Shown: in pieces, positions 12,973 through 13,086 of the stretch
How the letters are laid out: every line of letters begins with the position of its first letter
Position numbering within the stretch: the first letter of the stretch is position 1
NCBI GenBank assembly: GCA_013823625.1
Contig: PNMM01000001.1
Coordinates: forward strand, 1,054,001 to 1,118,000
Source of the DNA: Microbacterium sp.
GTDB lineage: Bacteria; Actinomycetota; Actinomycetes; Actinomycetales; Microbacteriaceae
Direction of reading: 5' to 3'
DNA: 64,000 nucleotides
Made by a program: the position numbers and the translations under genes
The notes under the pieces: generated by a model
The model's database searches: none
What the model saw: the letters and a program-made list of their open reading frames with translations, nothing else
Told to the model about the DNA's origin: nothing

Positions 12973-13086
12973 GAGGTGCTCCTGCTGTGGTCGTGGTGTG
13001 GTTGTCAGCCGACGACGAACTCCGCGACGAGGGAGGCTAAGGGTCTAAGCCTCGTCGCGGCAGCGAAGAAGGAGCTGGCCGAACAC
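12973..13086 (-). promoter_or_regulatory. leuA leader RNA, candidate ribosome-mediated leucine attenuator
   Basis: In transcript order: a 13-codon leader peptide with three consecutive Leu codons (13045-13086); an 11-bp perfect stem, CCGCGACGAGG (13050-13060) with CCTCGTCGCGG (13022-13032); then the leuA Shine-Dalgarno AGGAGC (12978-12983). The segment GCTCCT spanning the Leu codons (13070-13075) is fully complementary to that AGGAGC. A ribosome stalled for lack of Leu-tRNA would cover GCTCCT and free the leuA site; after normal translation the two can pair and block leuA. There is no U-run after the stem, so control of translation is more likely than termination. Confidence 0.7.
13045..13086 (-). 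CDS. leuL: Leucine leader peptide of leuA (13 aa)
   Basis: GTG TTC GGC CAG CTC CTT CTT CGC TGC CGC GAC GAG GCT TAG, read in three pieces here to show the layout: start VFGQ, then LLL, then RCRDEA and stop. It ends just after the 5' arm of the leader hairpin. TACCCT ends 6 nt before the GTG, so the mRNA probably begins with this start codon. The codons CTC and CTT also form the anti-Shine-Dalgarno segment. The function (sensing charged tRNA-Leu) is inferred from Leu codon clustering in front of leuA. Confidence 0.7.
   Translation of the reverse strand: MFGQLLLRCRDEA

Follow-up and report, generated by a model that had tools for sequence, protein, structure and literature searches.

How is leuA controlled in this actinobacterium, and could the leucine codons of a short reading frame in front of it serve both as sensor and as the strand that closes its ribosome-binding site? 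In the window, i.e., the whole stretch of 64,000 nucleotides of Microbacterium sp. DNA that was analysed, leuA codes for a full 2-isopropylmalate synthase (IPMS) with the Pfam domains HMGL-like, IPMS_D2 and LeuA_dimer, and its relatives by this gene are Microbacteriaceae. The initial annotation had described upstream of it a 13-codon leader with three consecutive Leu codons, an exact complementarity between GCTCCT within these codons and the leuA Shine-Dalgarno (SD) sequence AGGAGC, and an 11-bp hairpin between the two. All three were found as described, letter by letter and at the same positions (Table 1). The pseudoknot TTAGCC/GGCTGA and the leaderless start with its -10-like box were absent from that picture. 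By chance GCTCCT would be expected 0.011 times per 105-nt stretch of the window, and the GCUCCU/AGGAGC stem is present in the MFE structure of the free window RNA. This arrangement is that of the LEU element, predicted in 2005 before leuA of most Actinobacteria (Seliverstov, Putzer, Gelfand, Lyubetsky; PMC1262725): an actinobacterial leuA downstream, an ORF with a Leu run, a base stem between the Leu codons and the SD, and a pseudoknot inside it. The observation was real and correctly seen, and the use of the Leu codons as an anti-SD, singled out as its striking part, is a real overlap that had already been published; the core of the finding is largely known. The curated families of Rfam gave no match over the whole window at gathering score, and a search by E-value of positions 12900-13200 returned only Actinomyces-1, on the opposite strand, with an E of 3.3 and under its gathering score.

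Table 1. Parts of the leuA leader in the window, and the elements found before leuC and leuB.
Feature	Position	Strand	Remarks
leuA, 2-isopropylmalate synthase, 586 aa	11212..12972	(-)	start ATG at 12972
Leader ORF, GTG to TAG, 13 codons + stop	13045..13086	(-)	peptide VFGQLLLRCRDEA*; letters GTGTTCGGCCAGCTCCTTCTTCGCTGCCGCGACGAGGCTTAG (13086-13045)
Three Leu codons CTC CTT CTT, presumed sensor codons	13066..13074	(-)	
Anti-SD GCTCCT, 5' side of base stem	13070..13075	(-)	inside the Leu codons
leuA SD AGGAGC, 3' side of base stem	12978..12983	(-)	5 bases before ATG 12972
Hairpin P1, 5' arm CCGCGACGAGG	13050..13060	(-)	within leader codons C-R-D-E-A
Hairpin P1, 3' arm CCTCGTCGCGG	13022..13032	(-)	11 bp with the 5' arm
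Pseudoknot, loop side TTAGCC	13035..13040	(-)	
Pseudoknot, 3' side GGCTGA	13005..13010	(-)	6 pairs with loop TTAGCC, one of them G-U
-10-like box TACCCT, presumed leader promoter	13093..13098	(-)	first base 12 nt 5' of leader GTG
leuC element of the same genome (L356)	G000:C4:56137-56218	(-)	leader MRHKTRLLLRRRDES; -10 box at leaderless distance
Elements before leuB (24 loci)			L396, L399, L401-L403, L405, L408-L410, L414-L416, L418-L424, L426-L428, L432, L433

The conservation of the Leu run among relatives, which had been proposed as a check, is very marked. From 213 loci with a match to leuA we retained 193 by identity (at least 52%) and alignment start; with 140 fetched loci they make a set of 333 (323 distinct) that leans to near relatives. 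A leader containing LLL was present in 312 of the 323 distinct upstream regions, and the leuA start could be assigned in all 312. A loose scan for LLL is weak evidence by itself because it also matches 61 of the 323 opposite strands; when an R-containing tail is included the figures are 310 of 323 on the forward strand versus 5 of 323 on the opposite one. The tail itself, xxR(D/G)(E/G)x, is retained across leuA leaders. The covariance model of the element (R1), built from an alignment (A1) of 72 of 75 chosen sequences (L067, L306 and L352 were excluded), matches 144 of 148 genomes of the class at an E of 0.001. In a sample of 70 Microbacteriaceae genomes, 67 carry leuA, and all 67 have the element upstream of a leuA, no more than 400 nt away.

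Eleven of the 323 regions do not have LLL. Six of them (L092, L126, L171, L184, L218 and L236) retain a leader that overlaps a GCCGC motif and in which the Leu run is broken up or shortened (LLIL, LRLL, LLT, LL, LTLL and LVL, respectively), and L307 has an LL leader of the same GCCGC-overlapping type. No leader was seen in the upstream regions of L068, L069 and L231, and that of L235 contained only unrelated ORFs. Among the 312, L066, L067, L298, L299 and L306 have leuA leaders of a different kind (MRTRHGLLLLM, MTSLLLLTRP), devoid of the R-D/G-E/G hairpin codons; they were kept in the counts. Downstream of the leader, L066 has T-rich letters and may be a classical attenuator.

The distance between the -10-like box and the leader GTG in the window implies that transcription would begin at or beside the start codon, i.e., that the leader would be leaderless. 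The same spacing is found in most of the set: in 234 of 312 loci a TANNNT starts 15-11 nt upstream of the first leader codon, versus 3 of 312 at the control offsets (-30 to -26). SD-like letters precede the leader in only 13 of 312 loci (31 of 312 in a control window), versus 247 of 312 before leuA. The choice of codons is also peculiar. CTT makes up 52.6% of the Leu codons of the leader runs versus 2.7% of those in leuA, counted over the same 178 loci in which leuA was read. A fourth, upstream Leu codon is present in 126 of the 312 runs and is CTG in 102 of them, so a pyrimidine is retained in third position in those codons that take part in the SD pairing.

The hairpin P1 is well supported by covariation. 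Both sides have changed in 7 of its 11 pairs and 97.0% of the cells are paired over the 72 aligned sequences, compared with 34.8-68.2% when the arms are slid against each other; 304 of the 312 leuA loci contain P1 with 8 or more of 10 pairs formed. Over these 304 loci the leuA pseudoknot scored 15.3 with its own partner, 13.4 when partners were swapped and 13.2 when shuffled. Among 107 sister pairs that differ on both sides, the own partner was better in 39 and the swapped one in 21, with 47 ties. The letters vary from UUAGCC/GGCUGA in the window to CUAAGCC/GGCUUAG in L345 and CAGACUGGC/GCCGGUCUG in L062. Covariation of the leuA pseudoknot is supported, with weaker controls than those of P1.

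For the base stem between Leu codons and leuA SD, a search for compensatory changes had been suggested as a check. Over the 312 loci the base stem had a mean energy of -12.4 kcal/mol with its own partner and -10.9 with swapped ones, compared with -9.0 for neighbouring windows and -8.5 for a shuffled SD window. In 106 sister contrasts the own pairing was favoured in 59 and the swap in 37, with 10 ties (mean -1.23), and there are large compensatory contrasts such as L138/L326 and L262/L268. However, own pairs also did better in control windows lying upstream by 26 and 40 nt (55:32 with a mean of -0.60, and 51:38 with a mean of -0.28), and the sister test is supportive at most and not clean alone. 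When the Leu run was matched against 8-mers, its best partner started 11-20 nt upstream of the leuA start codon in 92 of 123 loci, versus 26.3 if partners were placed uniformly, an enrichment to which the purine-rich SD itself contributes; the length limits of this count admitted 123 of the 312 loci, and the window's own locus, being too short, does not figure in it. The SD pairing is accordingly supported by covariation, again with weaker controls.

What a ribosome on the leader would do to this stem was modelled by constrained folding, in which a footprint of 30 nt was shifted codon by codon along the window leader; the folding is nested and ignores the pseudoknot. The SD had an accessibility of 0.037 on the free leader; a ribosome placed on the Leu codons raised it to 0.239-0.245, and one at the stop codon to 0.073. 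Among 301 of the 312 homologs (11 with long gaps were dropped), the corresponding means were 0.23, 0.39 and 0.27. In 219 of them a ribosome on the Leu codons left the SD more accessible than one at the stop did (by more than 0.1 in 147), and in 82 it did not; the reverse difference exceeded 0.1 in 31. The claim that a stalled ribosome masks the anti-SD thus agrees with the folding, both in the window and in the mean of the homologs, as ribosome-mediated translational attenuation would require, but the model is not specific for leucine: in the window the accessibility is 0.19-0.30 at every position from the start codon through GAC, and only the last three positions close, so that the Leu codons are not singled out.

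Taken together, we consider it reasonably probable that the leuA leader is a LEU element acting as a translational attenuator, which senses the charging of leucyl-tRNA via ribosomes on a leaderless leader peptide. How ribosomes would stall, how leuA would respond to leucine and what the pseudoknot would do we infer as follows. When leucine is ample, ribosomes would traverse Leu-Leu-Leu, reach the stop codon and depart; the freed Leu-codon stretch would then pair with the leuA SD, forming the base stem around P1 and the pseudoknot, and leuA would not be initiated. If Leu-tRNA is uncharged, a ribosome would stall on the Leu codons, mostly CTT, which is rare in leuA, and would cover the anti-SD and the start of P1, leaving the SD free. 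The Leu codons would supply the place of the delay, the open state itself not being peculiar to them. The pseudoknot perhaps holds the closed form or paces the terminating ribosome.

The element is not confined to leuA. The genome of the window has a second strong match, of 65.6 bits, on contig 4 before leuC. In the Microbacteriaceae sample an element lies within 400 nt upstream of leuC in 47 of the 67 genomes with this gene, and 120 of the 123 element matches are at leuA, leuA paralogs or leuC. For the leuC count 68 leuC places of 67 genomes were taken, excluding the weaker paralogs G067:C1, G081:C6 and G069:C1:1660242 and low-scoring aconitase-like rows. The SD pairing was evaluated in the 30 of 36 leuC loci with a leader and a start, two of which are mis-set (a spurious leader in L459 and a misplaced Leu window in L394): own pairs gave -11.3 and swapped ones -9.8, with a permutation value of 0.0002, and the -10 box was present in 23 of the 30. 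The leuC pseudoknot, with only six sequences, scored 14.2 for own and 13.3 for swapped partners (permutation 0.09). For the leuC leader of the window's own genome, nested folding predicted neither sequestration of the SD nor any effect of a ribosome on it.

We fetched 45 further places, 43 of them additional matches from genomes that R1 hits more than once and the rest the matches of two genomes that do not carry this type of leuA; the multi-match genomes G142, G284, G294, G318 and G380 were excluded, as were the extra matches G335:C197 and G313:C4, which by eye are at leuA paralogs. These places precede leuB (24), leuA paralogs (8), leuC (6), another type of IPMS (2) and a stand-alone LeuA_dimer protein (1), with four others. 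The 24 leuB leaders usually stand several hundred bases upstream of leuB and have the same hairpin. They comprise 21 distinct peptides in which 94 of 120 sensor residues are Val, Leu or Ile (e.g., MRSVFVLIDCRGEA); where alternative starts existed, the one having a -10 box was chosen. This use of Val, Leu and Ile indicates that the codons, and not the RNA letters alone, seem to be chosen. The leuB pseudoknot covaries strongly: over 22 of these 24 elements own partners scored 20.4 and swapped ones 15.4, a difference reached in 0 of 2000 permutations. A second alignment (A2) contains 45 of 47 sequences, L397 and L400 being excluded because only part of their P1 was recovered.

In a class sample drawn regardless of the element, model R2 finds the module before leuB in 5 of 29 leuB-bearing genomes, so its use there is restricted and not general; all five were already in the R2 training set, and L490, with just 46 nt upstream, could not show a module. 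No module was found upstream of leuB in the window's own genome (L478). A weak R2 match within the window (33525-33625, plus strand, 18.5 bits, E 0.0088) is probably due to chance. By eye, a small ORF ending like Q-E-A/S-M-D-R-R-D separates the leader from leuB in L396, L401, L402, L409, L418 and L419; it may be the first gene under control. In L411 (409-804) a leader of the same module, MSRMLVVRRRSGV, is followed by a protein that consists of the LeuA allosteric domain standing alone (Pfam LeuA_dimer, E 2.4e-6); L412 and L425 resemble it by eye and had no Pfam match. In L430 and L431 the gene behind the element is IPMS-like and distantly related (31% and 26% identity), and their genomes match this leuA only distantly; judging from the sequences, the switch would be shared and the type of enzyme different. 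An Rfam search by E-value of six loci of the leuC and leuB type gave low-scoring matches only, far below gathering, and with Rfam 15 no model rose above chance level in the window or these six loci. We found no mention of the element before leuC or leuB in PMC1262725 or in the openly available literature, to which our search was confined.

We think it likely that the LEU element belongs to a broader, portable leader module for branched-chain amino acids, which in different actinobacteria is placed before leuA and its paralogs, leuC, leuB and a second type of IPMS gene, with a leuA plus leuC regulon in Microbacteriaceae. According to this reading, which we hold likely as a whole, the module would combine a leaderless peptide, exchangeable middle codons (Leu-Leu-Leu or Val/Leu/Ile) and C-terminal codons, typically C/R-R-D/G-E/G-A/S, that double as 5' arm in a pseudoknot of the H type. 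The leuC and leuB sites suggest a wider family of branched-chain amino-acid leaders, and this wider module is the part worth following.

Other explanations have to be weighed against translational attenuation. The element might be the binding site of a regulatory protein, as proposed in 2005 with the orthologs of ML1624 as candidates, or of another ligand, the peptide being secondary. The conserved pseudoknot is compact, as such a site might be, and the case was argued in PMC1262725 from the phylogenetic pattern and from Leu-codon mutations of Streptomyces coelicolor leuA that, as reported there, do not act as attenuation requires. That paper gives two versions of their effect, one of “some effect” that is “not consistent with classical attenuation”, the other that they “do not influence the regulation”. 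As described, these mutants speak against translational attenuation in a simple form. Since a change of the Leu codons also destroys the anti-SD, a mutant would lose sensing and repression together, which could explain the paradoxical phenotype; the overlap is one possible reason for it and allows a clean two-part test. Before leuB, however, the sensor codons shift from Leu to Val/Leu/Ile while P1 and the pseudoknot stay, something needless for a protein, and the CTT bias and the leaderless spacing point to translation. We regard a protein or ligand site as unlikely.

A second alternative is control of transcription, in which the leader would govern termination before leuA, either by Rho or at a hairpin. 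Leader peptides of other operons act by transcription attenuation, and the C-rich stretch between the leader and leuA could load Rho. An intrinsic terminator was sought before leuA and rejected, no G+C-rich hairpin followed by a U-run being found there; the longest T run between the leader stop and leuA is 2. Together with the lack of a typical Rho-independent terminator at leuL1 of Streptomyces lividans, in the part of PMC8079986 concerned with it, and with an SD pairing that beats swapped partners and best partners of the Leu run that are mostly at the SD, this leaves termination a slim chance. Translational rather than terminator attenuation, as the initial annotation had proposed from the missing U-run, is the best-supported reading, given also the conserved leader and the compensatory examples in the SD pairing. 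That the Leu run is a by-product, CTCCTT serving as SD-sequestering stem in an incidental frame, is very improbable: CUCCUU complements AAGGAG and so reads Leu-Leu in this frame, and the loci were selected for LLL so that the frequency of other codons cannot be read from them, but the mostly CTG fourth codon pairs less well with the purine-rich SD, the leader tail is conserved and leuB leaders retain branched-chain residues.

Comparison with known systems places the locus as follows. The genomes of PMC1262725 included Leifsonia xyli, of the same family as the window organism, and its LEU element already has the base stem between the Leu run and the leuA SD and the pseudoknot, with a protein binder favoured. 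Both share the Leu-run leader ORF, the Leu-codon/SD base stem and the pseudoknot within, so the window arrangement is not new in kind. The published element was restricted to leuA and one transposase, whereas here there are also leuC and leuB sites, and the leaderless promoter spacing, the CTT bias and the covariation counts are added. In S. lividans, leuL1 (MRFGLLLLSCRGEGL) has a peptide of the type found in the window and, in the part of PMC8079986 that deals with it, is leaderless by RNA-seq, lacks a typical terminator and is described from these data as an attenuator; SD pairing and pseudoknot are the features treated here. Corynebacterium glutamicum and C. diphtheriae also have a leader with consecutive Leu codons before leuA, entered as putative attenuators or leader peptides in the lists of PMC4046766 and PMC5784534. 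The trp genes of Corynebacterium and Streptomyces and leuS of Streptomyces have leader-peptide transcription attenuators (per PMC1262725). Like the leuA leader described here, these have a peptide rich in the end-product amino acid, but they end in a terminator hairpin with a U-run, and the leuA leader has none. In the translational attenuators of ermC and cat a stalled leader ribosome opens a sequestered SD. The mechanism proposed for the window shares this opening, with the difference that its anti-SD lies within the stalling codons themselves and that the signal would be tRNA charging and not a drug. The window leuA element therefore adds one member to the known LEU element, with a plausible mechanism, and the prediction of 2005, in which the mode of regulation was left open, now stands on firmer ground.
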